From positions 3,296,001 to 3,360,000 of the forward strand of contig NC_019701.1 in NCBI RefSeq assembly GCF_000317065.1: 64,000 nt of DNA. Direction: 5' to 3'. The notes beneath the pieces are model-generated. The model did not search any database. It had not been told where the DNA came from and saw only the letters and a list, made by a program, of their open reading frames with translations. The DNA is from Pseudanabaena sp. PCC 7367 (GTDB taxonomy: Bacteria > Cyanobacteriota > Cyanobacteriia > Pseudanabaenales > Pseudanabaenaceae). This document shows positions 2,721-62,764 of the stretch, in pieces. Numbering within the stretch: the stretch's first letter is position 1; each line of letters starts with the position of its first letter. The position numbers and the translations under genes are program-made.

Positions 2721-5700
2721 TCAGTACAAACGTGCCACCAAAGAAGCCATCGGCAGGATTATATAGCTGCCCACCCAGACCAATAAACTTGCCATTAGAG
2801 CGGGTTAGCCTGGTATCCTTAACAGTCAAGGTATTGTAAGAACCAGCCTCCGATTCAAACGCAGGTCTGTAAATAGTGGTATCTTCACCATCCACCACTG
2901 GTGGGAAGAAATTAGAGAGCGGATCGCGCTCTGGCTTGAAGGTATAGACCTCCCGATCGCCACCAGGCAGCGTAATGAATACCTTGGTGCCTTCCTGATA
3001 TGCTTCAGAGCGAATCCCAAGCTGTTCAAACACTTCATCTCTGCCCAGGCTGGTACGCAGGTCTGTATCCCTGAACTCCATCCGCCAGCCAAAGCCAAAG
3101 TCATCACTGTTTTTGCTGGTCAGTGAATCATAGGTGCGAGTAACAGTAATTGGAATACCTGTGACTGGAATTTGCAGGTCGGTGAAGGAGAGGCGGAAAT
3201 TGCCCAGCTTCAACTCACCAACTACATTCACCTGCCGATCGACGATCGCAATATTACCTGCTACATCTGTCGCTTCTAGCCTGAGGGTGTAGGTATCATT
3301 CTGGAGAACAGTCGGGTCAAATTCACCCAGGGCAGCGCCATTGACTGTGTCACTGCCACTAGCGATCTCGGTAAAATTATCACTATCGAGTGGCGCTACA
3401 CTGAGGCTGTAACTGGTCAGGTCATCATCCAGCACTGAACCGATAATATCTTCTGGGGCAGTGAACTCAGTGCCTTCAATTACATCCAGTGAGATATCAG
3501 GAGCATTGTTCATCGTAGGATCAATGACCCCGAACTCCTGCTCCACTGTGGCCATATTGCCTGCCGCATCGGTAGCGATCGCCTGGGCAGTGAATACCCC
3601 TGACTGGGTTGGTGTATATTCAGCCACACCATTGGCATCGAGGGTAATTGATTCACCATCTATGATCAGCAAGAGTTCAGTCACTCGGATATTATCCGTT
3701 GCCGTAACCACGATATTGGCAGGTTCATTGATGTTGACATTGAAGGGGGCACTGAGATTGATGACGGGAGCCTGGTCATCGCCACTGACGGCAATGTCAA
3801 AACTCTGTTGTACCGATGCACCACGATTATCAGCTACGGTAATGGTGACAGGTTGGAGTACATTTAATCCTAGTGGTACATCCCAGCGCAATCGACCGAG
3901 ATTATCAATCGTCATTCCCTCTGGTGCTTCCGTCAGGGTGTAGGTAAGTGGATCGCCGTCGGGCTCTTCTACCCTCAGATTATAGAGATAGGTATCACCC
4001 GATTGAATTCCTGTAGCTGGGGTAGAAAGGATTACTGGTGCACTGTTGACGATTGTACTGACCACAAAACTCTGGGTTGCTGTGGCACCATCTGGATCAG
4101 TGACAATTACTTCAATACTGAAGTCACCAGTTTGGTCAGTGGTTGGTGTCCATTCAATTAGACCAGTGTTGGCATCGATCGTCATGTCCGTTGGACTATT
4201 GCCCAGTGAGAAGGTAAGCGTACCATCTTCTGGATCGCTGGCCGTGGCTTGATAGGTGTAGGGTTCATCGATCGCCGCTGCGTAGATTGGCTGTGAGGTG
4301 AATGCAGGCGCTAGATTGGCAGCAGTATCACTAATCAACAAATCATAGGTTTGCGTGGCAATGCCACCCTGGCCATCATCTACCCTCACCTCGATCGTGG
4401 CATTGCCCAGGTCAGTGGCAGTCGGTGTCCATTCAATCAAGCCAGTACCAGGATCAATAATCATGCCAGTGGGGGCATTGATCAGCTCATAGCTCAATTG
4501 GCCATTATCGCTATCTTCTGCCTGCACCAGATAGCTATAGGCTTTATCCTGAGCTGCTTCTGTAATTGGCGCAGAGGTAATGATTGGCGGAATATTGACC
4601 GCATTAACAGTAACGGTGAACTCTTGTAATTCAAATGCACCCTGGGAATCGGTCACCCTGATTACCACATTATTGGTGCCGATATCATTCAAACCTGGTG
4701 TCCACAATAATCTGCTGGTGGCAGGATCTAAGAACATGCCATCGGGGGCAGTATCGAGAGTCAATAGTAAATTGTCATTGACGATGTCAGTATCATTGAC
4801 CTCGATTTGATATTCATAGTCCAGGTTGGCAGTGGCATTCACCCTGGGATCAGAGACAAAGAATGGTGGTGTATTGGGGATGGTGCCAGTGCTGGCTACT
4901 GTCAATTCATAGGTGTCACTGACGATCCCACCGCGACCATCATCCACTTCGACTGTGACAATATGAGTACCCACCTGGTCTGGCTGGGGAGCCCAGAATA
5001 TGTTGCCATTTGGTTCGATCGTCATTCCCGTTGGTGCTTCGGTGAGGCGATACTCCAAGGGGTCATTATCGGGATCGCTGGCTATGACTGTGCCTACATA
5101 GGGAATGGCCTGAGTAGTAATGCGGGGTAGCCCTTCAATATTCAGGGTCGGCGCATCATTGGGCAGGTTATCTACTACTTCAATCTGGAAACTAGTTGCA
5201 GCTGTACCACCTTCTCCATCATCGGCAGTAATTGAGAAGTTAAAGATACCGGTTGTATTGGGTTGCCACTTGAATAGAACATCCTCAAAGGTATTAAATC
5301 TTGGCAATCGCGGATCTTCATCAACTACCGTGGCGCTGGTACCATCGGGCTCAAGGATAAAGGTAAGCGGGTCTGATTCTGGCGTGCGGGCTTCCACCAG
5401 GAATTGAACATTTTGGCCGATCGCGGCTTGGCTGGTAGCTGGCGGCACTGTGTAGAAACGAGGCGGTAGATTCTGTGGTACTACCTCGATCTCGAATTCT
5501 TGCAATGTCACCGCACCTCTAGCATCAGTAGCACGGATAATCACTGTTTCGGTGCCTACCTGGTCAGCAGTAGCACGCCAGGCCATGATATTGCGATCTA
5601 TATCAAAGGTCAGTCCTTCTGGGCCACTGACCAGATCAAAGGTAATCAGATCGCCGTCTAAGTCGATCGCTTGAGGGCGATAGAGGATACGTTCATCTAC

Positions 5701-8700
5701 CTGGGCTAGGTTAGGGCCATTGGTAATAAACTCTGGAGCTTCATTCTCATCGGGCGCTGGTGGCACGATGAAGTTGCGCACATTACCGAAGTTATTACCA
5801 GTTAAGACTTCACCACTGGCCAGAGTGAGGTTATAGTTGTCGCTTTCAGGGCTGGTAACCTCAAAACCCTCTTGCACTTCCTGGACCACTTTGTAATCGC
5901 CAGGAGCCAGGTTGAAGTTGTAGATACCGTTATCATCAGTGGTAGTCCAGATCTCGCCTGAATCGCGGAGGTTGTTATCGTTTTCATCGATGAAGACTAC
6001 TTCATTAGCTAGGCTCAGTGGTTCGACTGCAGGAATATCGCCGATCGCAACTGGGGCAAAGGTTCTATCTTCACTGAATGTTCCATTTGCTAAACCACCA
6101 TCCAGGGGAGGGAATTTAGCTGGAACCTGAACTATCCTGACATTTTCTCCATCCCAGTACATTAGGCGTGATCTAGAGCCACCACCACCATCTCTAAGCG
6201 CCATTAGATCGCCAATATATGGCTGGAAGTAGTCAGCCCCTATGGCAGACACACCAGGATTCAAACCAATACTAGGAACAGCAAAATGATTTGCAACTAG
6301 ATTTTGATTTGGTTCAACCAACCTAAATCCAGCCTGCTTAAATTCTAAATCACCAGGAATAAGGGAAGTCACGATATAAGGGACTTCTTCGATCACTCCA
6401 GATGGATCTATTGTGTACAGAGTTGTCCCATATGTTGCAAGAATCTTGCCAGCTAAAGGACCATAAGAAAGATCATTTGGGACGATATCACTTACTACTG
6501 AAGTAGAGATTTCAACATTGGCTATATTTGACACCTCACCTTCAGAATTTACCCTGTTAATCGCAAGATTAAATCCTGCAGTCCCAGCTTTTGAATACCA
6601 AGACGAAGTTATTAAATCACCACCAAAAAGCCCCGTTTCATCAAAAAGAATACGCTGAATCTCTTGAGAAGTTGTATTTGGATCATCGGTAAAAGAGAAT
6701 GGAGGTCCACCAATATCAGCAAAATCTGGCTCGAATTCAAAGCCACTTTCACCAGTAGTTATTTTCTGAAGTCCAGTTTGCACTAAGAAGTCCCTTGTTA
6801 CAAACTTGTCACCAGGATTAAAGTCACCAATAAAGTCTTCTGGAACTACCGCAAAACCATCTCTACCTAGGATAATTCCAGGTTCTGGTGTAGCTGAGAC
6901 AATTTGAGTTAGACTGCCATCTTGTTCAAGCGCAACAATATCTCCCAAACCAACCCTTAAACCAGGAGGATTAACTAGGGTTGCTAGTAGTTGCCCAGTC
7001 GTATCATCATACGCAAAGCTATCAATACCGAATGTAGGGTCTTGATAGCTAATATCTACGATCTCAACATTGCCACTATTCAACTCCGGTGGCGTGAGTC
7101 GGTTATTCGTTCTAGGTTTAAATACCTGCGGTTGATTGAGCAAATCCTCAGGTGGCTCAAAACTGTCATAGAACACCCGACCCCAGATTTGGCCTGGCTG
7201 CTCACTGGAAAGGTCAAGGGTAAAGGAAAGATTATCAAACCCACCCCTGCCATCATCCACCATCACCGAGATATCATGGGCACCAGCATTTTCAGGCTTG
7301 GTCGTCCAGGAGATCCAACCCGTCTCAGGATCGATCGCCATCCCTGTTGGTGCTTCGGTCAGTGTGAAGGAGAGGGCATCATCATCAGGATCGATCGCTT
7401 CGATCCGTTGCACATAGCCGGTCGCGGTGAATCCATCGGTCTGTGGTTCAGAGATAATAATTGGGGCATTATTACCTTCCTCTGCGGCCGTGAAAATCTT
7501 ATAGGTCTGGAGCGCTTCACCACCACGAACATCAGTTACCTGCAGGGTCACATCAAACGTACCCGCCTGCTCACCCGTGGGAGTCCAGGTCACCAAACCA
7601 GTATCCGCATCAATTGCCAGACCATCCGGTGCGTCTACGACCGAGAAGATAAAGCCATCCTGGTCGGGATCGCTAGCCGTGGCTTGATAGGTATATTCAG
7701 CATTGATCGCTGCCTGCACAATCGGCGTGCTGGTGAATAGAGGCGGGCGATTACGATTGCCATCGAGCACACCCAGGTTATAGCTCTGCTCAGTGATACC
7801 ACCATTGCCATCACTGACCTGCACCGTGACTGTGTAGTTACCGACATTATCAATAATCGGTGTCCAGGAAATAGCCCCAGTGCTGGCATCGATCGCCATG
7901 CCATCTGGTGCCGCTAGTAGCTCATAGGTGAGCTGGTCATTATCTGGGTCGGTTGCCTGTACCTGATAGGTGTAGGGTCTATCAACAAATGCTTCTACCC
8001 CTGGCTCAGAGGTAATATCAGGGCTGCGATTGGTGCTGGCCAGTACTCTCAGGTTATAGGTGAATTGCGATTCATTGGGATTGAAGAACGAAAGCGTCCG
8101 CTGATCGCTAGTAGAGCCGATTGCTAAGCCTTGCTCGTTAATTAAGTTAGTGAAGTCAAAATAGGGAATCCCATCCGGGGTAACGCCATCGAAGTTTTGC
8201 ACCTGCACGGTTGGATCACTGAGGTTGTCGATCGCCACCAGCAATGGCCCATTAATGTCATATTGACCAATATTCTCCAAACTAACTTCCGTGGAGAGCA
8301 CCTTATCCTTGTTCACATAGGAAGTGCGACCATATTTCGCTTCCAGGCTGGGTGTCACCTCGGTGATGCTGCTGAAGTCTATATCTGCTGAAACTGGTGT
8401 TTCTGAAGTTGGCGTAACTGGGGTACTGGTGCCTGTACCACCGGGCAGAATTGCAATATCAGAAATGGTGAAGGTGGTCTGGGTATCGCTGTCGTTATTG
8501 ATTAATTCAAAGATTAAATTGGTAGTTTGCCCCAGCGTAAATGCAGGTAGGTTCAGAGTTACGGTCTTATCCACCAGGCTGGCATCAATGCTGAATGCAG
8601 CACCTTCGCCTTCGGTCAGATTAAAGAAAGCATCTCTACCCGTAGCAAAGGGTTGCACCAGCGGATCGCCATTGGCATCAACGATCGCTACTTCCAAGGC

Positions 8701-11463
8701 ATCATTAATGCCAGCGGTATCAGTTAAATCAAAATCATCATCATAGGTGAAGGTGAGGATTGCTGGTTGCTCCAGGATATCAAGCGATTCAGTTAAATCC
8801 ACCTGGAACGATTGCCCCTCTTGCAGGATTAGTGTTCCTTCTTCTAAGCGCGTAAAAGTCTGGGTGGTGGTGACCTCATTGCCCGCAATATCGGTTGCGA
8901 TCACATCAAAGGTATTCTCACCTAGAATCAGTGGCACATCGGTAAAGGTATATTGACCAGTAGAATCGGTGGCCGTGACCTGATTCGTCTGCACCAACCT
9001 GACCTGGGTATTTGGATCGCCCTGGCCTGTGAGCGTGACAATTTCGGCAATGGTTCTGCCATCACCCAGTGGCTCCGTATCAAAGACAGGGTCTAGCTCA
9101 AGAGTGGGGGCAGCAGGTGGCGTGGTATCGAGTGTAAAGGCAATGTCAACGTTGCCAGAGGCATTGCCAAATTCATCGGTGGCTTGCAGATTTAAGGTGT
9201 AGTCACCATCTACCAGTGGTGCGCCATTGATAGTTTCTAAATCCGCCTGGTCTAGATTAAAGCTACCATCGGGCAACAGTTCAGGAATCAAGCCAGTATA
9301 TTCACCCACTGGAATATCGCCAAACCCAGCGATGAATTCGTCAATGTTGCTAGCATCGGTGACTGTACCCGTAATCGTTGGGTCTGAGGTAATGCCATCC
9401 CCATTAGTGCCGCCGATCGCTGTATCATTTGCCAATTGCCCCGTAATCACCGGTGGGTCAGCGTCTACAGGCAATCGGGTGAAGGTTGGCGAGATCGTAG
9501 TTTCATTCCCAGCAATATCTGTTGCCTTTACATCAAAGCTATTATCACCGAGTGCTAAGGCTACATTGGTAAAGGCATATGCACCAGTGCCATCAGCAGT
9601 AGTGGTCTGTCCAGTTTGAATTAGTTCTATCTGGGCACCAGGATCACTTTGACCCGTGAGGGTAACAATCTCAGCCGTGGTTTGCCCATCACCAACGGGG
9701 TCTGTATCAGAGGCAGGATCTAAGCCGATATCAAGATTGGGAGCAGTTGTATCGAGGCTAAAGTCAATCGTAAAATTAGAGGTATTGCCAAACTGATCAA
9801 CCGCTTGCAGATTGAGGACATAATCACCATTCGCTAACGGTGCACCATTGATTTGCTCTAACATAGTCTGGCTCAGCGTAAAACTACCATCACTTTGCAG
9901 TTCGCTCAGGATATCAACATAATCGGCAACTGGAATACTACCAAAACCTGCAGTTAGCTCTGTAATTGTGCTGTCATCGGTTACAGTACCGCTGATCGTT
10001 GGATTTGACGTAATCCCATCACTGACTCCTGTATCATTTGCCAATTGCCCGGTAATAATTGGGCTATCTTGATCTGAGACGATCGCTGTGACCGTAGCAT
10101 TATTATTAAAAATGGCATTCCCTTTAGCACCGATCGAACCAATTAGCTCTGAGCCATTATTGGAAATAAAATTCTTCGCGGTTAGGAATTCGCCTCTGGT
10201 TGCCGATGCCCCATTGAAGATGATGTCACCCTGGGCGATCACAGTCAGGAAATCAGCCTCATCGGTAGTCGTCGTAGCACCATTGAAGATAATGTTTTGA
10301 GAACCTGCGGCAATCAAACTTTCACCACTAAACCTGGCTCCGTTATTCAGGTTGATCGATCTAGAAGCCAGAATCGCACTATTGTTAACTTGCGTGTTCG
10401 CCAGATTAACACCGCCATTGTTGGCTACGATCGCCACATTATTGAGGGCATGGTTATTACCATTGAAATTAATGTTGCCCCGCTTAACAATGATGACCGT
10501 ATTCTCGATCGTCACGCCATTGGGAATATTCAATCCACCATTCGTGATTTCAACCACCGTGGGATTATCTGCAGTTCCACCAGCAGGGAAGTTCTGATTC
10601 CAATTGTTGGTATTGTTGAACTGATTTGCACGATCAAAAACAATCGGCGTGATGCCTGCAGGAATCCGATCCGCTAGCTCTTGATCCTTAACTGTATTAA
10701 AGCCAGGTACATCGACAGTCTGCGGGTCTACGATCTGTGGTGGCAGTAGATTGCTGTAGGGATTATTGGGGGCATTAGCTACGTTATATCCTTCAGAAAC
10801 AGCGACCGCAAAGGGCACCAGAATCGGTTTGCCCTCACTATCAAGCACAGGATTACCCTGGCTATCTCTTTCTACTGGCAGGGTGGCAGACTTGTTAATC
10901 GTAAAGCCTTCTTTGCCATAAACCAGGGCATCGTCACTGGTATCCAGGGGTGCACCATCAAAGTCGCCACCATTGTTGATCGTGATTCTACCCTCAGCTT
11001 TGATCGCAAATTCGGGAATGCTAGTTACTGCCGATGCTGCTAGAGGACTTGATGATAGCGGTGGTGAGGATAGCTCGCTTGATTCTGGGCTGCTACTGAG
11101 CGATTCCTGGACTTGCAATGACAAATCACTACCAGCAGAGATGGGTGCGATCTGCTCGTCGTCTAGATTAAAGGTAGGGATGCGATCGCCAAATCCATTA
11201 CCACTGGTTGGATTAGTCAGGCGGCTCTGGGCTGGTACTAGCAGATCGTCTGTAATGCCTGCTAAACCATTAATATTACTGCCATTACCTAGATCTAGAT
11301 ATGGGCTATTTGGTTGCAGTGGATTGCGTTGGCTACCACTTTTATAGCGGGATGGATATTTAAGTGGTGCATCAAGACTGGCATCTAATAATGGATTCCC
11401 TAACGTTGCTGCATCCAACAACGATGGCGTGTTTGCTAATAACGCCTCATTACTTATTTGCAT
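1..11463 (-). CDS. Giant RHS/YD-repeat protein with Ig-like and cadherin-like domains (3' end beyond window)
   Basis: The frame is open for 3,821 codons from an ATG at 11463 and the C-terminus lies outside the window. In order I read: a low-complexity Ser-rich N-terminus without an obvious Sec signal; an Asn/Gly-rich beta-helix-like stretch (about residues 275-460); two sets of bacterial Ig-like modules with the phrase DGITSNPTISGTV; three cadherin-like/putative-Ig repeats of about 90 residues; a unique segment (about 1430-1790); an SdrD B-like prealbumin fold (about 1815-1895, FIDENDNNLRDSGE); seven more cadherin-like repeats; an RHS entry region near residue 2750 (VTRTYDSLTSK); and about 35 YD repeats to the edge. 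RHS proteins encapsulate or display C-terminal cargo; cadherin-like arrays act as stalks or adhesins. The type I secretion genes upstream on the same strand are the likely exporter. Whether the C-terminus is a toxin, an adhesive tip or a secretion signal cannot be seen. Confidence 0.93.
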   Translation of the reverse strand, partial: MQISNEALLANTPSLLDAATLGNPLLDASLDAPLKYPSRYKSGSQRNPLQPNSPYLDLGNGSNINGLAGITDDLLVPAQSRLTNPTSGNGFGDRIPTFNLDDEQIAPISAGSDLSLQVQESLSSSPESSELSSPPLSSSPLAASAVTSIPEFAIKAEGRITINNGGDFDGAPLDTSDDALVYGKEGFTINKSATLPVERDSQGNPVLDSEGKPILVPFAVAVSEGYNVANAPNNPYSNLLPPQIVDPQTVDVPGFNTVKDQELADRIPAGITPIVFDRANQFNNTNNWNQNFPAGGTADNPTVVEITNGGLNIPNGVTIENTVIIVKRGNINFNGNNHALNNVAIVANNGGVNLANTQVNNSAILASRSINLNNGARFSGESLIAAGSQNIIFNGATTTTDEADFLTVIAQGDIIFNGASATRGEFLTAKNFISNNGSELIGSIGAKGNAIFNNNATVTAIVSDQDSPIITGQLANDTGVSDGITSNPTISGTVTDDSTITELTAGFGSIPVADYVDILSELQSDGSFTLSQTMLEQINGAPLANGDYVLNLQAVDQFGNTSNFTIDFSLDTTAPNLDIGLDPASDTDPVGDGQTTAEIVTLTGQSDPGAQIELIQTGQTTTADGTGAYAFTNVALALGDNSFDVKATDIAGNETTISPTFTRLPVDADPPVITGQLANDTAIGGTNGDGITSDPTITGTVTDASNIDEFIAGFGDIPVGEYTGLIPELLPDGSFNLDQADLETINGAPLVDGDYTLNLQATDEFGNASGNVDIAFTLDTTPPAAPTLELDPVFDTEPLGDGRTIAEIVTLTGQGDPNTQVRLVQTNQVTATDSTGQYTFTDVPLILGENTFDVIATDIAGNEVTTTQTFTRLEEGTLILQEGQSFQVDLTESLDILEQPAILTFTYDDDFDLTDTAGINDALEVAIVDANGDPLVQPFATGRDAFFNLTEGEGAAFSIDASLVDKTVTLNLPAFTLGQTTNLIFELINNDSDTQTTFTISDIAILPGGTGTSTPVTPTSETPVSADIDFSSITEVTPSLEAKYGRTSYVNKDKVLSTEVSLENIGQYDINGPLLVAIDNLSDPTVQVQNFDGVTPDGIPYFDFTNLINEQGLAIGSTSDQRTLSFFNPNESQFTYNLRVLASTNRSPDITSEPGVEAFVDRPYTYQVQATDPDNDQLTYELLAAPDGMAIDASTGAISWTPIIDNVGNYTVTVQVSDGNGGITEQSYNLGVLDGNRNRPPLFTSTPIVQAAINAEYTYQATASDPDQDGFIFSVVDAPDGLAIDADTGLVTWTPTGEQAGTFDVTLQVTDVRGGEALQTYKIFTAAEEGNNAPIIISEPQTDGFTATGYVQRIEAIDPDDDALSFTLTEAPTGMAIDPETGWISWTTKPENAGAHDISVMVDDGRGGFDNLSFTLDLSSEQPGQIWGRVFYDSFEPPEDLLNQPQVFKPRTNNRLTPPELNSGNVEIVDISYQDPTFGIDSFAYDDTTGQLLATLVNPPGLRVGLGDIVALEQDGSLTQIVSATPEPGIILGRDGFAVVPEDFIGDFNPGDKFVTRDFLVQTGLQKITTGESGFEFEPDFADIGGPPFSFTDDPNTTSQEIQRILFDETGLFGGDLITSSWYSKAGTAGFNLAINRVNSEGEVSNIANVEISTSVVSDIVPNDLSYGPLAGKILATYGTTLYTIDPSGVIEEVPYIVTSLIPGDLEFKQAGFRLVEPNQNLVANHFAVPSIGLNPGVSAIGADYFQPYIGDLMALRDGGGGSRSRLMYWDGENVRIVQVPAKFPPLDGGLANGTFSEDRTFAPVAIGDIPAVEPLSLANEVVFIDENDNNLRDSGEIWTTTDDNGIYNFNLAPGDYKVVQEVQEGFEVTSPESDNYNLTLASGEVLTGNNFGNVRNFIVPPAPDENEAPEFITNGPNLAQVDERILYRPQAIDLDGDLITFDLVSGPEGLTFDIDRNIMAWRATADQVGTETVIIRATDARGAVTLQEFEIEVVPQNLPPRFYTVPPATSQAAIGQNVQFLVEARTPESDPLTFILEPDGTSATVVDEDPRLPRFNTFEDVLFKWQPNTTGIFNFSITADDGEGGTAATSFQIEVVDNLPNDAPTLNIEGLPRITTQAIPYVGTVIASDPDNDPLEYRLTEAPTGMTIEPNGNIFWAPQPDQVGTHIVTVEVDDGRGGIVSDTYELTVASTGTIPNTPPFFVSDPRVNATANLDYEYQIEVNDTDIVNDNLLLTLDTAPDGMFLDPATSRLLWTPGLNDIGTNNVVIRVTDSQGAFELQEFTVTVNAVNIPPIITSAPITEAAQDKAYSYLVQAEDSDNGQLSYELINAPTGMIIDPGTGLIEWTPTATDLGNATIEVRVDDGQGGIATQTYDLLISDTAANLAPAFTSQPIYAAAIDEPYTYQATASDPEDGTLTFSLGNSPTDMTIDANTGLIEWTPTTDQTGDFSIEVIVTDPDGATATQSFVVSTIVNSAPVILSTPATGIQSGDTYLYNLRVEEPDGDPLTYTLTEAPEGMTIDNLGRLRWDVPLGLNVLQPVTITVADNRGASVQQSFDIAVSGDDQAPVINLSAPFNVNINEPANIVVTATDNIRVTELLLIIDGESITLDANGVAEYTPTQSGVFTAQAIATDAAGNMATVEQEFGVIDPTMNNAPDISLDVIEGTEFTAPEDIIGSVLDDDLTSYSLSVAPLDSDNFTEIASGSDTVNGAALGEFDPTVLQNDTYTLRLEATDVAGNIAIVDRQVNVVGELKLGNFRLSFTDLQIPVTGIPITVTRTYDSLTSKNSDDFGFGWRMEFRDTDLRTSLGRDEVFEQLGIRSEAYQEGTKVFITLPGGDREVYTFKPERDPLSNFFPPVVDGEDTTIYRPAFESEAGSYNTLTVKDTRLTRSNGKFIGLGGQLYNPADGFFGGTFVLTTKEGIVYEIDGNTGDLLTVTDRNGNQLTFTDAGVESSTGKQVVFERNAQGRITALIDPAGNRITYDYDANGDLIAVTDRENNQTEFQYNEPTRDHFLTDIIDPLDRPASRTEYDDKGRLKQILDVNGESVEMTYDPDNSLQIVKDKRGFDTVYEYDNRGNVVKETDPVGKVTERTYDADNNILTEKVITDESGSDGFVSKFTYDSRGNVLTETDPLDRTNRYTYNSFNQLSTIINPLGHTTSYEYDSRGNLTAETDATGYTRSYIYDPVGRVKLIVEDAGRDITEFNYDSFGNLSSLIDALGHETTLTYDENGNPLTETRTQTTPEGERTLTTTVTYDNDNRVTSVLDAEDNLTRFEYDGNGNRTVVIDPLGRRTEQVYDDLNRPSETIFPDGTPGDLLDNLRLRNEYDVVGNRTAIVDPSGKTTNYVYNPINLVTETISPDDTPGDLSDNQRILSDYNQRGLATGLTDEDGDPVELIYDAAGQLVGSSNTLNDSVTTVYDAAGRSIATTDPLGRTTLFDYDELDRVTRVETPDGESIAVVYDQFGNVTSLADQAGRSSQYEYDVLDRLVAVTDENGERTEYSYDELGNLIQQKDANDRLTKYEYDRLSRRIAVERPLGQREEMSYDEVGRVDRITNFNGDVIEFEYDELDRLRAKNYVNESRLFEYTYYDSGQLATYADDRGITTYNYDDRNRLASRLEPDGTEISYTYVSGGAIESITTPTGTTSYTYDEVNRIDTISKDGEVTDYEFDDAGNLVQIILANGVTETMSYDDLNRLVGVTNTDANGNILSSYIYTLDELGNRTRVEESSGRIIEFTYDDLYRLTQETITDPVNGDRTITYTYDEVGNRLSRDDSIEGLTTYTYDDNDRLLTSFLNGVETTYAYDDNGNLLSANNPDRQVVYDWDA
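3530..8060 (-). repeat. Ten cadherin-like/putative-Ig repeats in two blocks
   Basis: Protein-level repeats of about 90 residues start with a P-I/F-x-S-x-P phrase, continue with YTYQVxAxDPDxDxLTYxL and APxGMxID, then xGxIxWTP. Three lie at about 7200-8060 and seven at about 3790-5740. They are separated by a unique segment and one SdrD B-like domain near 5770-6010. A related Ig-like unit follows at about 3530-3790. The acidic DPDxD motifs suggest calcium binding, which is inference. Confidence 0.8.
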
Positions 11464-48080: not shown

Positions 48081-50882
48081 ATGCCAGCCAGAATAATGGT
48101 GGTGGACGACGATCGCCAGCTTGAATCACTTATAAACAGCCTGTTCAGGGGCAAAATCATCAACGGTGATTATCGGTTTTGTTTCGTCTCCGACGGTCAA
48201 CAGGCATTAGAATTACTGAGCGCAGATGATGCGATCGATATGGTGCTCACTGCGATTGATCTGCCACGGATGGGCGGTTTGGAGCTTTTGGCACAGCTTG
48301 AGGGAGATGAATTTTCTAGATATAGGCAATATGGCTTAAAAACTATAGTCATGTCTAGCTGTGAGGATATTGCTAATATCAGGACAGCAATGAACCTGGG
48401 GGCAGTGGATTTTCTAACCAGGCCGATTAACCCCAAAGATTTAGAAATTACGATCGCCAATACGCTCGAAAAAGTAGCACGCGATCGGGAAAATCAACGA
48501 TTCCGACGGATTAAGGAAGCAGAACTAAACCAGGTCGAGGCCAAATATCGGCACATTTTTGAAAATGCCGTAGAGGGCATGTTCCAAGCCAGCCCTGGGG
48601 GTAGTTTTATTGATGTCAACTCAGCCATTGCCGAAATGCTGGGCTATGCCACATCGCAACATTTGCTGGCGCAGATCAATGATATTGGCATCCAGGTTTT
48701 TGCTGAACCAGGGCAGTATGAACAATTCAGTCAATTAATCGAGACCCAGGCACGGGTCAAGGGATTTGAGTTCCAAGCCAAGTGTGCTGATGGGAGCCTG
48801 ATTTGGGTTTCCGCCAATGCTCGCGCGGTCAAAGAGCCCCAGGGCAGTTTGCTTTATTACGATGGTAGCCTGATCGACATCAGCGATCGCATTACCGCCC
48901 AGGAAGCCCTGAAGCGATCGCAAAAAGACCTGGAGCAACGGGTGAAACAACGCACCCAGGCACTCGCCTATGCCAATGACCAGATGGTAGTCGAGGTGGC
49001 GGTGCGCAAACATATTGAACAATCACTGCGCCAGAGCGAGTCAAAGCTGCGCCATGTATTTGAGCAAGCCCCAGTGATGATGATATCCGTGGACGATCGC
49101 GGTCGGATTTGTGATGTCAACGACAAGTGGCTGGCCGAGACTGGCTATGCTAGGGCGGAAGTGATGTATAAATCCGCTGATTTTTTAATTTCCCTGCAAC
49201 CAGATGAGCCGGAACCAGAGTTTGGCACTGAATTTTGGCAAGCCGATCATATTCAAGATATCCCCTACTGCTATCGCACCAAAGACGGCGATGATATTGA
49301 TGTATTGATCGATTGTGTGGCCACGGTTGACCCCACGGGCAAAGCAATTAATTTGGCCGTAGTCCGCAACATTACCGCCCAAAAGCAAGCAGAAAAGCAA
49401 CTCCAATTTGCCATGTTTGCCCTGGAGCGATTGTCTCACCTGGTGGCCTGGTGCCGCCCCGATGGGCAGATTACCTATGTGAATAAGGCTACTACCAAGG
49501 CGTTGGGCTATGCCAAAGATGAGCTATTAAACATGAGCATTAGCCAGATTGATTCTAGTATTTCTGCTTCCCAGTGGCAATCCCATTGGCAAGAGCTCAA
49601 GACCAGAAAATACCTTTACTATGAAACCACCATGTGCCGTAAGAACGGCAGCATTTTCCCAGTGGAGGTAACGGCCAACTACCTGGAATTTGGCGGCGAG
49701 GAATATAACTTTGTGTTTGTGAAGGATATTTCCGATCGCAAACAGTTTGAATCAGCCTTGCAGCGTAGTAACTCCCTCCTGAAGGCTCAACGCGAAGTGG
49801 CGATCGATGGCATTCTGGCGGTGGATGAACAGGGGCGAATTGTCAGTTTCAATCGCCGCTTTTGTGAAATGTGGGATGTGCCCGAAGCGCTGTTAAACGC
49901 AGGTGAAGCAAATCGGTTGCTCTCTTTCCTGCTCACTGCCGTCGGTTTACCAGAACCACTCACTGATCTGATTGAGCGTACCTATGATGACCCCAATGAT
50001 TTCCAACGCGATGAAATTAGATTGCCCGGCGATCGCATTTTTGATTGTTATTCTGGCCCAGTAATGGCTAATGACGGCAAGTATTTTGGCATGATCTGGT
50101 TCTTCCGCGATATTACCGATCGCGTGATCGCCGAAGAAGCTTTGCAAGTAGAGAAAGAAAAATCGGAGCGGTTGCTGTTGAATATTCTGCCGGAGCCGAT
50201 CGCCAACCGCTTGAAACTAGAACAAGGCGCGATCGCCGATCGGTTCAGTCAGGTATCGGTTTTGTTTGCCGATATTGTTGACTTTACGCGGGTGTCGGCA
50301 CGCATGTCACCGCAGGAATTAGTTTCCATGCTCAATCAAATTTTCTCCGCCTTCGATCACCTGGCCGATCAACATGGCCTCGAGAAAATTAAAACCGTTG
50401 GTGATGCCTACATGGTCGCAAGTGGTTTGCCCTATTACCGGGAAGATCACATGGCGGCGATCGCCCATATGGCTCTGGACATGCGAGAGCAAATGCAGCA
50501 ATTTAACGCCAGAACCGGCGAATCATTCCGGATGCGGATTGGCATTAATGCGGGACCAGTGGTGGCGGGGGTAATTGGCACCAAAAAGTTTATTTATGAC
50601 CTGTGGGGCGATACGGTGAATATTGCCAGCCGGATGGAGTCCCAGGGCACTGCCGATCGGATTCAAGTGTCGGAAATTATCTACGAGGAACTAGCAGACC
50701 AGTTTGATTTTGAACCCCGTGGCGCGATCGAGGTGAAGGGGCGTGGCCAGATGACAACTTATTTCTTGACCGGACGCAAGCCTGGGGCTAAATCGGCAAC
50801 TGATTCTAGTTATGATTTAGATTTAAGCCATAATGTGGAAGCAAATCAAGATGTAAGTCAATCGGTGCGATTGAGCAGTTAG
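48081..50882 (+). CDS. Pseudo-receiver/multi-PAS class III adenylate cyclase
   Basis: This 933-aa protein makes cAMP. Domains: receiver-like (about 4-125), coiled coil, PAS (about 155-275), coiled coil, PAS (about 325-440), PAS (about 440-560), PAS-like (about 570-680) and a class III cyclase domain (about 720-905). The cyclase has the metal site FADIVDFT, and Lys771 (KIKTVGD) and Asp840 (YDLWGDTVN) occupy the adenine-specificity positions, so adenylate rather than guanylate cyclase is expected. In the receiver the phospho-acceptor position is Ala58 (VLTAIDLP) and the conserved Lys is Arg114 (FLTRPIN), so it cannot be phosphorylated conventionally. No membrane segment is visible. Confidence 0.93.
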   Translation: MPARIMVVDDDRQLESLINSLFRGKIINGDYRFCFVSDGQQALELLSADDAIDMVLTAIDLPRMGGLELLAQLEGDEFSRYRQYGLKTIVMSSCEDIANIRTAMNLGAVDFLTRPINPKDLEITIANTLEKVARDRENQRFRRIKEAELNQVEAKYRHIFENAVEGMFQASPGGSFIDVNSAIAEMLGYATSQHLLAQINDIGIQVFAEPGQYEQFSQLIETQARVKGFEFQAKCADGSLIWVSANARAVKEPQGSLLYYDGSLIDISDRITAQEALKRSQKDLEQRVKQRTQALAYANDQMVVEVAVRKHIEQSLRQSESKLRHVFEQAPVMMISVDDRGRICDVNDKWLAETGYARAEVMYKSADFLISLQPDEPEPEFGTEFWQADHIQDIPYCYRTKDGDDIDVLIDCVATVDPTGKAINLAVVRNITAQKQAEKQLQFAMFALERLSHLVAWCRPDGQITYVNKATTKALGYAKDELLNMSISQIDSSISASQWQSHWQELKTRKYLYYETTMCRKNGSIFPVEVTANYLEFGGEEYNFVFVKDISDRKQFESALQRSNSLLKAQREVAIDGILAVDEQGRIVSFNRRFCEMWDVPEALLNAGEANRLLSFLLTAVGLPEPLTDLIERTYDDPNDFQRDEIRLPGDRIFDCYSGPVMANDGKYFGMIWFFRDITDRVIAEEALQVEKEKSERLLLNILPEPIANRLKLEQGAIADRFSQVSVLFADIVDFTRVSARMSPQELVSMLNQIFSAFDHLADQHGLEKIKTVGDAYMVASGLPYYREDHMAAIAHMALDMREQMQQFNARTGESFRMRIGINAGPVVAGVIGTKKFIYDLWGDTVNIASRMESQGTADRIQVSEIIYEELADQFDFEPRGAIEVKGRGQMTTYFLTGRKPGAKSATDSSYDLDLSHNVEANQDVSQSVRLSS

Positions 50883-50941: not shown

Positions 50942-51289
50942 AAAGTAGAAAGTAAGCAATTGATCACCCGCACGCCCGATCCCCATGACAAGCGATCGGT
51001 ACGTTTAGCGCTTACACCCCAGGGTGAGGCGATCATTAATCAGCTTAAACGCACGATCCCCAATCAATCCGAAAATAGCGATAATAGCGACAATATAGAA
51101 AATCAACTGCGGGAATTACTGCGCGATTGGCAAAAACAAAGTGGCTGGCAGGTTTTTGGTCTCTGTCAAACTTGCCAATTCAATCAAACTCTTGCAGATG
51201 GTGGGTTCCGATGTGGTTTGACTCAAGAAAGACTAGCATTTGCAGAAACCCAGCAAATTTGCGCCGAACATGACTTTGCGATCGATTAG
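50942..51289 (+). pseudogene. 5'-truncated MarR-family regulator
   Basis: The frame opens at about 50942 and reads directly into the MarR wing phrase LITRTPDPHDKRSVRLALTPQGEAII, then the C-terminal helices and a Cys-rich tail (FGLCQTCQF, FRCGLTQERL, QQICAEH) typical of some MarR proteins. The entire helix-turn-helix part is missing; the only available start is a TTG at 50960, just before the wing. It lies 60 bp after the adenylate cyclase stop, so a deletion probably joined the two. Not expected to bind DNA as a normal MarR dimer. Confidence 0.75.
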
Positions 51290-58435: not shown

Positions 58436-58942
58436 TCACAGGCTGTTTAGAGCTGTTCGCTTGACCATTTCGCCCAGAACCGATTTAGGTATCGCTCCAT
58501 AGACAGTCTTGAGCGCCTGGTTTTGCCGATCGAGAAAAGTAAGTTGCGGCACTGCGGTGGCATGGAAGCTTCGGGCGATCAATGCATCAGCAGGTTCATC
58601 CACGTTCAACATCACAAAATTAACCTGATTGCCATACTTGTGGTGCAGGGCTTGCATGGTGGGCGCGAGCGATTGGCAGGTGGTACACCAATTGGCATAA
58701 AACTCCACGATGCTAGGTTTATTATTAGCGATCGCATTTTGGTAAGTGACACTCTGGCGCGACATTTGTTTTAGGGTTGCCAGCCCAGAAATAGAAGAAC
58801 CATTAAAAATGCTGGCATTAGTGCCGGAGGTGAAAAAGATCACTAGACTAAACAGAACCGCGATCGCTACTACACCGATCGCCGTGAAATTTGGCTTTGC
58901 TTCCTTTGCTTCCATTGTGTCGCTTTCTTGATCTGGGGTCAT
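58436..58942 (-). CDS. Membrane-anchored thioredoxin-like protein (TxlA/HCF164 type)
   Basis: This 168-aa protein has an N-terminal transmembrane anchor (about 21-40, AIGVVAIAVLFSLVIFF) and a thioredoxin domain with redox motif WCTTC (Cys86, Cys89), VNFVMLNVDEP and the cis-proline region TAVPQLTFLD. HCF164/TxlA proteins work on the lumenal or periplasmic side, receive reductant from CcdA and help reduce apocytochrome thiols for cytochrome c and b6f assembly. Its position downstream of multiheme cytochrome c genes suits that role, although 244 bp separates it from the cytochrome b gene. Confidence 0.88.
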   Translation of the reverse strand: MTPDQESDTMEAKEAKPNFTAIGVVAIAVLFSLVIFFTSGTNASIFNGSSISGLATLKQMSRQSVTYQNAIANNKPSIVEFYANWCTTCQSLAPTMQALHHKYGNQVNFVMLNVDEPADALIARSFHATAVPQLTFLDRQNQALKTVYGAIPKSVLGEMVKRTALNSL

Positions 58943-59186
58943 TCTCTCTGGTTAGGCTTTACTAAATTAAGGCGCTAAGTTAAGTCCAAATTGTCAAATT
59001 TAGGTACTTGCACTCAATTATATCTATTCTCAATTCTTGCCAAAGACAATACAGCAAATTTCTGCCTGGAATATGATGGAGCCACTTGGAGTTAAGGCTT
59101 CCAGCAATAGCTCTACCGATCATTTCCATATGCGAACCATACGATGCGACTGCTTGAGTGGAATTAGGCGGCGATCGCTACTGATA

Positions 59187-59807
59187 CTACTGATAATAGT
59201 AGGCAATGAAGATATGAAAGCCCAACATCACAAAAAAGATCGCCACTAGAATGATATGGGTGGGTAGCCAAAAATCGCGCATCTTGGCGATCAACTTGCC
59301 CTTAGAAATCCCAAATCCCCTCTTTTTCCCTTCCTTCTCTGGATTCTTGGCAGGGGGTGTTCCATAATAGCGGCGCGACGATTCCAGGACCCCGGTTTCA
59401 GCAACCACACCCACCAAAGCAGAAAGGGTGACCGCAAAAAACACCCACAGAAAGATCGCATTGAAATTCAAACCATTCGCACCGATCGTGTGAATTAAAG
59501 TTGCCGCGACCAAACCCACACCAATAAATATATGCAAACTGCGCCAGAAAATAATCGAGCCAGGAATAGTAATCTTCATTAACCAACCCCGTCCTCGCTT
59601 TCGCACCGTCAGTACCATCTCAAATAGCACAAAGGCGAGCGAGACATAACCCGTGACCTGCTTATAAATCTCACCTTGAAAAACCTGATAGAGATTAAAA
59701 GACTGCTCCCGCAACGTGGGTAAATAGTTGCCACTGATCGCAAATGGCAGCAGCAGCAACGCAGTAATAAAAGTAAGAATAATCAGGGTGGAAAATTTTG
59801 GTTTCAT
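59187..59807 (-). CDS. Di-heme-type membrane cytochrome b
   Basis: This 206-aa protein has about five transmembrane helices. Two helices carry histidine pairs with equal spacing: His92 and His106 (LHIFIGVGLVAATLIHT), and His184 and His198 (HIILVAIFFVMLGFHIF). This arrangement binds two stacked b hemes across the membrane (His92-His184, His106-His198), as in cytochrome b561/ferric-reductase-like proteins. A basic loop (PPAKNPEKEGKKRGFG) lies between the pairs. It probably moves electrons from quinol across the membrane. It is the next gene after the multiheme operon on the same strand, beyond a terminator. Confidence 0.83.
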   Translation of the reverse strand: MKPKFSTLIILTFITALLLLPFAISGNYLPTLREQSFNLYQVFQGEIYKQVTGYVSLAFVLFEMVLTVRKRGRGWLMKITIPGSIIFWRSLHIFIGVGLVAATLIHTIGANGLNFNAIFLWVFFAVTLSALVGVVAETGVLESSRRYYGTPPAKNPEKEGKKRGFGISKGKLIAKMRDFWLPTHIILVAIFFVMLGFHIFIAYYYQ

Positions 59808-59952
59808 ATCGGGCGATCGCCTAGATCGGCTGTCAACTAGTCAGAGCGAAGGTTAGGAATCCACTTTCCTAAACAAAGAAATTAATCCAGGTTATAGTTC
59901 ATCTTATTGCCGGGAAATTCATTTGGTAGTTAACTAGGCACAATTTCTCTAT

Positions 59953-59972
59953 ATCTATCAACATCTATCAAC
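59953..59972. repeat. 10-bp tandem duplication
   Basis: ATCTATCAAC occurs twice in tandem upstream of the cytochrome b gene on its 5' side. Confidence 0.8.
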
Positions 59973-60012
59973 ATGGAATATAAAAATATCCAGCAGCAGA
60001 AAATATAGATAA

Positions 60013-60057
60013 CCAAATAGACAAAGGGATGCGCCATTATTCACGAACGCACCCCTT
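60013..60057 (-). terminator. Terminator closing the globin-multiheme operon
   Basis: AAGGGATGCG (60024-60033) and CGCACCCCTT (60048-60057) form a 10-bp stem with one G-T pair and a 14-nt loop. On the minus strand it is followed by TTTGTCTATTT. It starts 16 bp after the stop of the Tll0287-like gene. Confidence 0.7.
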
Positions 60058-60073
60058 CCAACTAGATGAGCAA

Positions 60074-60745
60074 TTATGAACTACCCAAAGGCAGGTTGAT
60101 CATAACCCCACCCATTACATCACCCAGGACAAATACCTTATCGGGATATCTTTCCTTGTGGACTGGATGTTCGTTGTGGCAAGTGACACAGGCTTCGGCC
60201 ACGGCAACATCAGGATAGAGGGCTGAATAGTATCTTTGGCCAGCAATCTCCTGAAAGTCTTTGTATGGTTCGCTAGTCTCTTCCACCTGCTTCATGGCAG
60301 TCTTCTCAAACTCGTTTCTAGGAGCCTGATTATCGTTAATGTTCCAACTTGAGATCAAGCCATAGGTAAAGGTGTCAGCTTCTAGGGCGATCTCTGAGCC
60401 CAAACGGAACATCTGCGCCGGCAAGGGAACTCCGCCGGTCTCTTTCCAGGCTTCGGTTGCTTCTGCATCAACTACACCATCGGGTTTCTCTTTCCCTTCT
60501 AGTTTGGTCAGCCTTGAGATCACATGCTTGGTATAGGCGGTGCGATCGGCTTCCAGGACAGTATGAATATAGTCGGTGACCAATTCAGGGGAAATGCCAA
60601 CCTCTGCTGTAGCGGTAGGCGCAGGGCCACTACTACAGGCCGATATAGTAATTAGGGCAACAGAAATTAGCGCAACTAAGCCGAAGGTTTTAGTTCTGAG
60701 CCAGTTTGTCCAGTTTTTAGGACGATTTCTACGATTTCTATTCAT
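60074..60745 (-). CDS. Tll0287-like (DUF3365) monoheme c-type lipoprotein
   Basis: This 223-aa protein has a basic N-terminus, a hydrophobic segment and a lipobox ISAC ending at Cys37, so it is predicted to be a membrane-anchored lipoprotein facing the periplasm. The body is the helical Tll0287-like/DUF3365 fold, and the C-terminal part has one heme site, CVTCH (Cys186-His190), followed by NEHPVHKERYPDKVFVLGDVMGG. Such domains are seen in redox sensors and small electron carriers. It is the last gene of the multiheme operon, 57 bp after the hexaheme stop. Confidence 0.87.
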   Translation of the reverse strand: MNRNRRNRPKNWTNWLRTKTFGLVALISVALITISACSSGPAPTATAEVGISPELVTDYIHTVLEADRTAYTKHVISRLTKLEGKEKPDGVVDAEATEAWKETGGVPLPAQMFRLGSEIALEADTFTYGLISSWNINDNQAPRNEFEKTAMKQVEETSEPYKDFQEIAGQRYYSALYPDVAVAEACVTCHNEHPVHKERYPDKVFVLGDVMGGVMINLPLGSS

Positions 60746-60802
60746 AGTTAGTTTCTCTCTACCTACCTTTGTGTTGTGTGTGTTGTTGATGGAAGTTCGG
60801 AT

Positions 60803-61648
60803 CTACTCGCTAGGCGAGCCAGATCTGCGCTCCTCTAGCTCTCTCACCAGCTCAAAGGTTTCCATCTCCAGGGTGGGCGATCGATTAAAATTCGCTTCCA
60901 CCATCTCATCGTCGAATATACTTTTATAGGCATATTCCATGCCGTGGCAATTCATACAGACTTCCGAAACCATGCGATCGCGCGGCAAAAGGGTAAAGGT
61001 GTTGTTGTGGTTAACATGCACCCAATCCCCGTTTTCTGGTATCTGCCGGGGTAAATGACAGGTGGCACAGGTCACCGATTCACGATCGGGGCGGGGGATA
61101 TTTCCCTTTGCCCTGAAAATCTCGGCATGTCTAGACTGCTCATAGTTAAGGGAATGGTTATCGTTATGGCAGGTGAGGCATGAATCCGCCGCTGCCACAG
61201 TTGTGTTAGCCGAATGAACATCATGGCAGGTATTACAAGTCATTTGCTTGTCCATTGCCGCTTCCTTCATCGGAATCTGAGCCATCGCTGGAGTTAGCGG
61301 TGTCATACCTTCGTTAAGCCGAATGCCATGTTTACCCAACAGGAAAGTAGCTACGGCTTGCTCGTGGCAAGTGCGACAGCTTTCATGATCTGGCTTGCTA
61401 ATCAGCGCCTCGGTCTCTTGATCCAGATGGCAACTAGAGCAATTGATATTGGCGATCGCATGGGCACTACCCTGCCACTGCTCGGTAATTTGGGCTAAAT
61501 CTTCCTGACTGGGAGATGTACCATTTTGGGCAAAGGCAGAATAACCTTGATAACCAGGATGGCTATAGCTATAAAAGAAAAATACCGCTAGCGCCACCAG
61601 GGCGATCGTGACTAGCTTTTTGAGGTCTAATTTGAGCGCAAATTTCAT
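60803..61648 (-). CDS. Membrane-anchored hexaheme cytochrome c
   Basis: This 281-aa protein has an uncleaved or signal-type N-terminal helix (about 11-27) and six CXXCH heme sites: Cys70, Cys91, Cys138, Cys157, Cys194 and Cys231 (first cysteines). The motifs read CSSCH, CRTCH, CNTCH, CLTCH, CATCH and CMNCH. Additional histidines between sites could be distal ligands. No CXXCK site is present, so it is not a standard NrfA. Its start has AGGAGG nine bases upstream, embedded in the end of the pentaheme gene two bases away, which indicates translational coupling. Likely a periplasmic electron conduit or reductase; the substrate is unknown. Confidence 0.9.
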   Translation of the reverse strand: MKFALKLDLKKLVTIALVALAVFFFYSYSHPGYQGYSAFAQNGTSPSQEDLAQITEQWQGSAHAIANINCSSCHLDQETEALISKPDHESCRTCHEQAVATFLLGKHGIRLNEGMTPLTPAMAQIPMKEAAMDKQMTCNTCHDVHSANTTVAAADSCLTCHNDNHSLNYEQSRHAEIFRAKGNIPRPDRESVTCATCHLPRQIPENGDWVHVNHNNTFTLLPRDRMVSEVCMNCHGMEYAYKSIFDDEMVEANFNRSPTLEMETFELVRELEERRSGSPSE

Positions 61649-61650
61649 TG

Positions 61651-62292
61651 CTAGCCACCTCCTAGAAATTCCTGACCTAGATCAGCGGCAGGAGCGCGAT
61701 CGAGCTGTGGTTTCACCGTCCGATCGGGATAGGTCGGCACCGGCAACATATCCGGTTGATCTAGATTCTGGCGAATGAATCCGGTCGAGATCGATCGATG
61801 ATCATGGAAGTTGTGACAACCAGCGGTCCAACAGCCGTCAGGTGAGAAGCCCTCATGGCTGGCCAGATCGCCGTTAATTACACCTTCATGACAATGCATA
61901 CATAGATCCGGATGCAAATGCACACCGCGACTAAATATATGCACATGCTCGTTATGACAGGCCGTACAGGTGAGTACCTCGATCTCTTCCATCAACTCGG
62001 CCCAACGCGGATCGCGGAACTTCTTAGTACCATGTTCATCCTCTGCCATTTCCGCCTCATGGCAGCGCAGGCAGGTTTCATTCGTGATCGGCTTAAACCC
62101 TTCATGACAGGAGCTACAGGAGGCTTCGATCACCATGTGTCCATGGGAGGTTTCACCGGGCAAAAAAACGCTGCGCTGATCCAGGGCAAATGCAGCAGCT
62201 AACCAGGTTGTCAAAACAACCAGCAACACCATCACAATTATGTTGGCTCGGAATAACCTACCTAGCCTGAATCTCCCTGGGGAATTACTCAT
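61651..62292 (-). CDS. Membrane-anchored pentaheme cytochrome c with a CX4CH site
   Basis: This 213-aa protein has an N-terminal transmembrane helix (about 17-37, IIVMVLLVVLTTWLAAAFA) and five heme sites: CSSCH (Cys59), CLRCH (Cys74), CTACH (Cys109), CMHCH (Cys131) and CWTAGCH (Cys154), the last being a CX4CH variant known from cytochrome c3-type proteins. The anchor suggests a NapC/NrfH-like quinol-facing role, but the sequence is closer to small c3/c7-like heme proteins. The tail is Pro-rich and ends in three Gly. It lies between the globin gene (28 bp) and the hexaheme gene (2 bp). Confidence 0.9.
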   Translation of the reverse strand: MSNSPGRFRLGRLFRANIIVMVLLVVLTTWLAAAFALDQRSVFLPGETSHGHMVIEASCSSCHEGFKPITNETCLRCHEAEMAEDEHGTKKFRDPRWAELMEEIEVLTCTACHNEHVHIFSRGVHLHPDLCMHCHEGVINGDLASHEGFSPDGCWTAGCHNFHDHRSISTGFIRQNLDQPDMLPVPTYPDRTVKPQLDRAPAADLGQEFLGGG

Positions 62293-62320
62293 TTGTTCCT
62301 AGGTCAATTGTGCCTTTACC

Positions 62321-62764
62321 CTAGCCTGCTGCACCTTCTAAGTTGAGCACCTCCGGCGGGTAATCAGCCCCATCCAGCATAATTGCTGTAATGGCACCGT
62401 ATGCGGCAACCCAGGCTTCCTTGACCTCAGGAGTCCAATCAGCTTTTAAGTATTGCTCTAGGGTAGCCAGTAACGCATTCCCAACTAGTGGATAGTGGGC
62501 AGGTAGCGCCCCATATTTGACATGTCTGGCACCTAAACCTTTTAACTCGCTAGTGAGCACTTCTGGATTAGTGAGGTTATCGATCGTCATCACCAATGAA
62601 CCCACCAGCATTTGCTTTTGTTTACCCATTGCGGTGTGGGCAAACAGTGGCTTAGCCTCGGGATACATCGTGAATAGGTTCTCGTAAAAGCGATCGCCTA
62701 ATTCACCCGCATAGGGCTTGACCTTGTTGAAACTTTCTTGCAAGATCTCAACTGGTAGTGACAT
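62321..62764 (-). CDS. Single-domain globin (flavohemoglobin-like)
   Basis: This 147-aa globin resembles Vitreoscilla hemoglobin and the globin half of flavohemoglobins. Key residues are Tyr27 in FYENLF (B10), Gln49 (E7) and proximal His81 in ARHVKYG (F8), then PAHYPLVGNALLATL and WTPEVKEAWVAAYG. The Tyr-B10/Gln-E7 pocket is typical of O2-binding, NO-dioxygenating bacterial globins. There is no reductase domain, so an external electron donor is needed; the cytochromes in the same operon are candidates. It is the first gene after an NtcA-type promoter. Confidence 0.93.
   Translation of the reverse strand: MSLPVEILQESFNKVKPYAGELGDRFYENLFTMYPEAKPLFAHTAMGKQKQMLVGSLVMTIDNLTNPEVLTSELKGLGARHVKYGALPAHYPLVGNALLATLEQYLKADWTPEVKEAWVAAYGAITAIMLDGADYPPEVLNLEGAAG

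Follow-up and report, generated by a model that had tools for sequence, protein, structure and literature searches.

Receivers that lack the phospho-accepting aspartate are already known, and the domain described here adds one more of them. According to a review from 2025, pseudo-receivers make up about 6% of bacterial receivers by direct count, the same authors having earlier inferred about 13% for prokaryotes, and aspartate-less domains account for about 4% of receivers across all life; the on/off switching of bacterial pseudo-receivers was called a mystery in this review (PMC12632262). Alanine represents 9% of the phospho-Asp replacements in aspartate-less receivers (PMC4395418), and arginine is described as a common substitute for the conserved lysine (PMC12632262). 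The word 'cyclase' is absent from the main text of the paper on aspartate-less receivers (PMC4395418), and no adenylate cyclase featuring a pseudo-receiver was found in our literature search, most subscription journals being outside its coverage.

The closest studied parallel to the receiver of this study is FrzS of Myxococcus xanthus, in which alanine occupies the aspartate site, an aspartate follows two residues on (Ala53, Asp55), and the fold is intact (PMC1974792). The FrzS receiver was reported to bind neither Mg2+ nor BeF3, the alpha carbon of Asp55 lies 5.4 Angstrom off, and the residue is dispensable, the D55A variant being unimpaired in motility (PMC1974792). However, FrzS has serine for the second acid and glycine for the threonine and keeps the lysine (PMC1974792), and a coiled coil is predicted for its C-terminal region (PMC12632262), whereas the protein analyzed here ends in a cyclase domain. 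A phosphate-free receiver within a nucleotide cyclase is known from PleD, the second receiver of which is a pseudo-receiver; in PleD, however, this domain is preceded by a true receiver that drives dimerisation when phosphorylated (PMC12632262), whereas the present protein has a single dead receiver with PAS domains behind it. Its receiver aligns to both PleD receivers and has the motif 'RPI-x-P-x-x-L' in common with the second. CyaC-type cyclases carry a kinase module and a canonical receiver ahead of the cyclase. Pfam detected neither HisKA nor HATPase_c within the protein of this study, which therefore falls outside the CyaC type, and a separate 1164-aa protein bearing receiver, GAF, kinase, receiver, and cyclase domains, which we take to be CyaC, is encoded at L252:3386-6877 in the same genome.

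The gene in question is located in a window of 64,000 nucleotides, representing the whole stretch of Pseudanabaena sp. PCC 7367 DNA that was analyzed. Its frame (48081-50882, forward strand) is uninterrupted over 933 codons and encodes 933 aa. An in-frame stop is found two codons 5' of the ATG, so the start can lie at most one codon farther upstream and the N-terminus cannot be much longer. The features are listed below in window coordinates, where the relatives are the 51 other members of the receiver subfamily described further on, and where the PAS coordinates refer to the best stretches among the Pfam PAS matches of the protein.

48081..50882, + strand: whole gene, pseudo-receiver, four PAS stretches, and probable class III adenylate cyclase (ORF, Pfam)
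48093..48449, + strand: receiver-fold domain, aspartate-less, residues 5-123 (Pfam Response_reg, AlphaFold2, Foldseek)
48105..48110, + strand: retained acidic residues D9 and D10, invariant in 51/51 relatives
48252..48254, + strand: A58 (GCG) at the phospho-acceptor position, Asp in 51/51 relatives
48273..48275, + strand: G65 (GGC) at D+7, Asp in 51/51 relatives
48354..48362, + strand: S92 (Thr/Ser position, kept), S93 (Ala in 51/51 relatives), and C94 (Tyr or Phe in 51/51)
48420..48422, + strand: R114 (AGG) at the conserved Lys position, Lys in 51/51 relatives
48432..48566, + strand: predicted continuous helix, residues 118-162, leading from alpha-5 of the receiver into PAS1 (residues 1-300 modelled with AlphaFold2)
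48543..48881, + strand: PAS1, residues 155-267 (Pfam PAS)
49044..49208, + strand: PAS2, matched core residues 322-376 (Pfam PAS_8)
49452..49736, + strand: PAS3, residues 458-552 (Pfam PAS_9)
49803..50126, + strand: PAS4, residues 575-682 (Pfam PAS_4)
50238..50771, + strand: class III cyclase catalytic domain, residues 720-897 (Pfam Guanylate_cyc, 230.1 bits; phmmer to PDB)

Residues 5-123 were recognized by Pfam Response_reg (PF00072) with 62.9 bits (cut-off 30.2), and together with the predicted fold this identifies the domain as a receiver which, like other aspartate-less receivers, has its phospho-Asp replaced. The span of 48081-48425 given for it in the original prediction was too short, since the domain extends to at least residue 123 (48449) and its alpha-5 reaches residue 162 in the model. 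PleD was the best solved match by sequence, and the phmmer alignment placed A58 against the Asp of 'LLDVMMPGMDG', i.e., in the column of the Asp ending beta-3, and R114 against the Lys of 'FLTKPID'. The same columns were obtained for both residues in a MAFFT alignment of the window receiver with eight close relatives, so that the alanine and the arginine named in the original prediction are borne out at the phospho-Asp and Lys positions. The proposed alignment check gave the expected outcome, as neither of the two neighbouring aspartates falls into the phospho-acceptor column: D53 lies five residues ahead of it, and D60 is located at D+2, where the relatives carry N, R, Q, Y, or S. Either residue as the true phospho-acceptor was ruled out by the alignments to PleD, to the eight relatives, and to the 51 subfamily receivers. 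The claim that a pocket of three acids (DDD) is kept holds for the metal-binding pair D9 and D10; D11, however, sits where 50/51 relatives have Glu, and it is the third member of the acidic triad that has been lost. Retention of both acidic-pair residues distinguishes the domain from most pseudo-receivers, about 80% of which are non-acidic at the second (PMC12632262).

With respect to the canonical five-residue set (DD, D, T/S, K), D9, D10, and S92 are present and the Asp and Lys are gone, which places the domain outside canonical receivers; the aromatic and Ser switch positions, F111 and S92, are retained. Further residues are replaced, among them L61 (Met in 51/51 relatives) and G65, which replaces the invariant Asp of 'MDG'. 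Judged from the alignments, L61, G65, and S93 beside A58 and R114 represent a departure from the relatives that amounts to more than one chance change. A six-residue insertion (residues 76-81) is also found between alpha-3 and beta-4. Sequencing error is an unlikely source of these differences, because several separate codons around the pocket changed together and the frame is open.

Across 38 searched genomes of the family, receivers about 50% identical to that of the window were retrieved at E 1e-30. A profile (A1) was built from the window receiver and eight close relatives, which are 40-49% identical to it in the underlying alignment. Across 338 genomes of the class, with 12 candidates scored in most genomes and the best matches listed, subfamily members reached at least 161 bits and other receivers at most 114 bits among the matches listed. 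By these scores, the window receiver belongs to a sharply separated subfamily, for which 52 distinct receivers scoring 160 bits or more each, the window receiver included, were assembled from the collected loci. The outputs of the 51 others were assigned by motif to GGDEF and/or EAL in 26 and to a kinase in 19 cases, and by Pfam to receiver-PAS-AAA in four and to a receiver only in two; a cyclase of the class III type occurs in 1/52, namely the window protein alone. Receiver-GGDEF/EAL, receiver-kinase, and receiver-PAS-AAA proteins thus hold the nearest receivers by sequence, all 51 of which keep both the Asp and the Lys, unlike the window protein. A tree of 56 rows placed the window receiver inside the subfamily with the longest end branch (1.38 vs. 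a median of 0.12), owing to which its exact place is unsure. Loss of the Asp is derived, because it is kept in 51/51 other members.

At L244:3818-7744 (- strand), three tandem genes, each opening with a subfamily receiver, lie behind a receiver-kinase gene, the tandem outputs being GGDEF-EAL and GGDEF by motif and a kinase by Pfam. In four genomes (L182, L187, L191, and L192), a small stand-alone receiver from a sister group, with A1 profile scores of 105-114 bits, adjoins the larger subfamily gene.

Within its own genome, which consists of two contigs, the window receiver has no subfamily sibling among the 79/79 candidates scored: the next best reached 45 bits vs. 296 bits for the receiver itself, and with the same single-receiver query, subfamily members listed as loci in other genomes scored 79-107 bits. 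With the A1 profile, for which 12/79 candidates were scored, the next best in this genome was 75 bits. The idea that the domain acts as a decoy for a canonical sibling was rejected, as none of the 79 candidates in this genome is such a sibling. No same-genus genomes are listed among the genomes compared, and when named genomes were scanned once with the full window protein as query, the 45 loci obtained were PAS-, receiver-, or distant cyclase-level matches, with no full-length orthologue among them. In total, 99 receiver matches were detected in the genome, at least five of them without the Asp. The other 98 comprise 92 with Asp, two with Asn, two with Glu, both weakly aligned (14.9 and 23.6 bits), and two partial matches not covering the site; the Asn and Glu cases are located at L289, L313, L314, and L315, those at L313 and L315 being the weakly aligned ones.

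The C-terminal half features the motifs FADIVDFT, EKIKTVGDAYM, and YDLWGDTVNIASRM at residues 728, 768, and 839, which we take to be the metal-Asp, adenine-type Lys/Asp, and Asn/Arg motifs. All of these class III motifs are present, and the domain aligns to solved adenylate cyclases in the PDB (phmmer), suggesting that the window protein is probably a cAMP-making enzyme, one of 15 cyclase matches in the genome. Residues ~548-901 share 58-59% identity with the cyclases L010-L016 from a single sister genus. Two of these (L010 and L011) are GAF-PAS-cyclases by Pfam, with a GAF domain replacing the receiver, and the N-termini of L012-L016 look alike by eye. In two other genera of the family, L017, L019, L020, and L021 have a different kind of receiver at that place, with the Asp kept, and L018 has no usable receiver, its front half being apparently out of frame (by eye). 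As related cyclases bear such varied N-termini, the window protein is a chimaera, with a cyclase half of separate origin from its receiver, and the receiver is exchangeable.

CyaC-type cyclases and receiver-PAS-cyclases resemble the window protein in that a receiver precedes a class III cyclase. Unlike it, those sampled keep the phospho-Asp: among 252 loci, Asp was found in 14/14 and Lys in 13/14 of the other receiver and cyclase genes. This sample was drawn largely through resemblance to the window protein, excludes a pair of window gene copies and a duplicate of L006, and may miss genes whose frames are truncated at the ends of loci. The exception with respect to Lys is the L017 cyclase, which has Arg and yet keeps Asp; judged by this case, Lys to Arg alone is no sign of a dead receiver.

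AlphaFold2 predicted a (beta-alpha)5 fold for the receiver (pLDDT 95.0, pTM 0.89), and the model matched solved receiver domains in Foldseek (best E 6.5e-10), so the receiver fold is predicted to be intact. In the model of residues 1-300 (mean pLDDT 91.8), the helix 118-162 runs unbroken from the last receiver helix into PAS1, with block-mean pLDDT values of 82-96 along its length, and a second helix (268-299) follows PAS1. Signalling helices have been described to run from receivers to catalytic or PAS domains (PMC1592074). However, the pTM of the same model was 0.63 despite its high mean pLDDT, and thus the placement of the receiver relative to PAS1 is not settled by it. For the PAS domains, the nearest solved chain was 3ewk (E 4.8e-11), followed by weaker matches to DosP and FixL. 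We take 3ewk to be a flavin redox sensor; likeness to these three chains is a lead only as to the PAS cofactor.

A nearby cognate kinase gene is usual, albeit not obligatory, for a canonical response regulator. At the window locus, no histidine kinase was found near the cyclase gene among the frames scanned between 34574 and 63975, a scan that left out short and antisense frames. In contrast, a HATPase_c gene lies adjacent to or near the subfamily gene on the same strand in 9/9 neighbourhoods of relatives (L242-L250), which were chosen by us and are not all independent, some representing one cluster in sister species. Together with the FrzS parallel (PMC1974792), this difference supports the original prediction of a pseudo-receiver that is not an ordinary Asp-phosphorylated output. 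Overall, that interpretation is partly supported, its negative half being right and its positive half, input from PAS domains or a partner and binding of a ligand or protein, being a candidate reading.

As a tentative explanation, which we favour while regarding it as somewhat short of probable, the derived aspartate-less receiver would serve as a phosphate-free N-terminal dimerisation or docking domain on a PAS-controlled cyclase. The ancestor was a phosphorylatable receiver from the subfamily described above, the examined genes of which adjoin histidine kinase genes, and it became joined to a PAS-cyclase module. Phosphorylation chemistry would have been lost by the changes of Asp to Ala and Lys to Arg and by alteration of the pocket neighbours, whereas the predicted fold, the acidic pair, and the switch positions F111 and S92 were preserved. 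Acting without phosphate, the receiver would dimerise or dock a partner; alpha-5, continuous with the helix into PAS1, may set the register of the cyclase homodimer, and the four PAS domains would provide the signal. The architecture, the residue losses, the ancestry, the predicted fold, the cyclase motifs, and the lack of a kinase among the scanned neighbours are in support of this explanation.

Some of the same evidence would also fit a functionless receiver, drifting since it was fused to the cyclase or since its partner kinase was lost, with the PAS domains alone in control of the enzyme. Among the 35 near-invariant columns (at least 95% conserved in the 51 other subfamily receivers), the window receiver has lost nine, compared to a mean of 0.41 and a maximum of three for the other members, each measured against the remaining 50. 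These losses and the longest branch of the subfamily are also compatible with plain relaxation, and the N-terminus that is exchangeable in related cyclases of the family, with GAF in L010 and L011, also fits a vestige, as does the missing kinase among the scanned neighbours. However, the 933-codon frame is intact, 26/35 near-invariant positions are retained, the fold is predicted with high confidence, and S92 and F111 are kept, which makes such a vestige rather unlikely in our estimation.

Slightly less credence is given to a ligand- or redox-sensing pseudo-receiver, in which the emptied pocket with R114 and C94 would bind a small molecule or be oxidised, thereby altering the cyclase dimer. 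C94, at T+2, stands where all relatives have an aromatic residue, and precedents exist in CikA, KaiA, and ShkA for ligand binding and in RitR and Hp1021 for Cys redox chemistry (PMC12632262). However, the redox Cys of RitR and Hp1021 is located elsewhere (PMC12632262), no ligand site was found in the alignment, and Cys is not rare in the subfamily, at least one being present in 24/52 receivers, the window receiver included. We consider it unlikely, and more so than sensing, that the domain mediates localisation or partner docking without any effect on dimer geometry, by analogy with the phosphate-free FrzS receiver in polar localisation. The alanine at the Asp site, the Asp at D+2 (PMC1974792), and the conserved receiver fold agree with such a role; no partner gene is linked, however, and FrzS is without the second acid and the Thr (PMC1974792), whereas the window receiver keeps both positions (D10 and S92).

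Similarly doubtful, and if anything a shade more so, is the combined scenario of a receiver captured from a c-di-GMP (GGDEF/EAL) or kinase system, the pocket of which, with C94 and R114, would sense redox state or a small molecule and gate the cyclase via helix 118-162. If true, this would represent an adenylate cyclase controlled by a phosphate-free receiver, with a new kind of input domain. A residual phosphorelay with T57, D60, or a Ser accepting the phosphoryl group is very improbable: D9 and D10 are kept and D60 lies at D+2, but D60 is outside the acceptor column, its FrzS equivalent is displaced by 5.4 Angstrom and dispensable (PMC1974792), and R114, S93, and G65 are altered as well. Regarding the favoured dimerisation or docking role and its alternatives, one dead member against 51 live relatives, on an easily measured enzyme class, provides a clean test case, in which the cyclase can be assayed with the receiver intact, removed, or swapped for that of a live relative.

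Further observations concern the remainder of the window. The sequence GCGATCGC, presumably the cyanobacterial HIP1 repeat, occurs in 72 copies vs. 0.76 expected. Near the gene of the putative cAMP enzyme, a CBS-GAF-GGDEF-EAL protein is encoded at 42072-45035 (- strand). Directly 3' of the cyclase gene, a TTG frame of 109 aa (50960-51289, + strand) has no Pfam match; it resembles, in our assumption, the wing part of a MarR regulator, and is possibly a remnant. A giant frame of at least 3821 aa (1-11463, - strand), in which numerous Ig-like domains and 15 stretches of RHS repeats were recognized, runs off the window. Finally, the run of genes at 58436-62764 (- strand) encodes thioredoxin, a Tll0287-like protein, two multihaem cytochrome c3/c7-like proteins, and a globin, along with a weak DUF4405-like match below its cut-off, and by these assignments appears to represent a haem and electron-transfer cluster.
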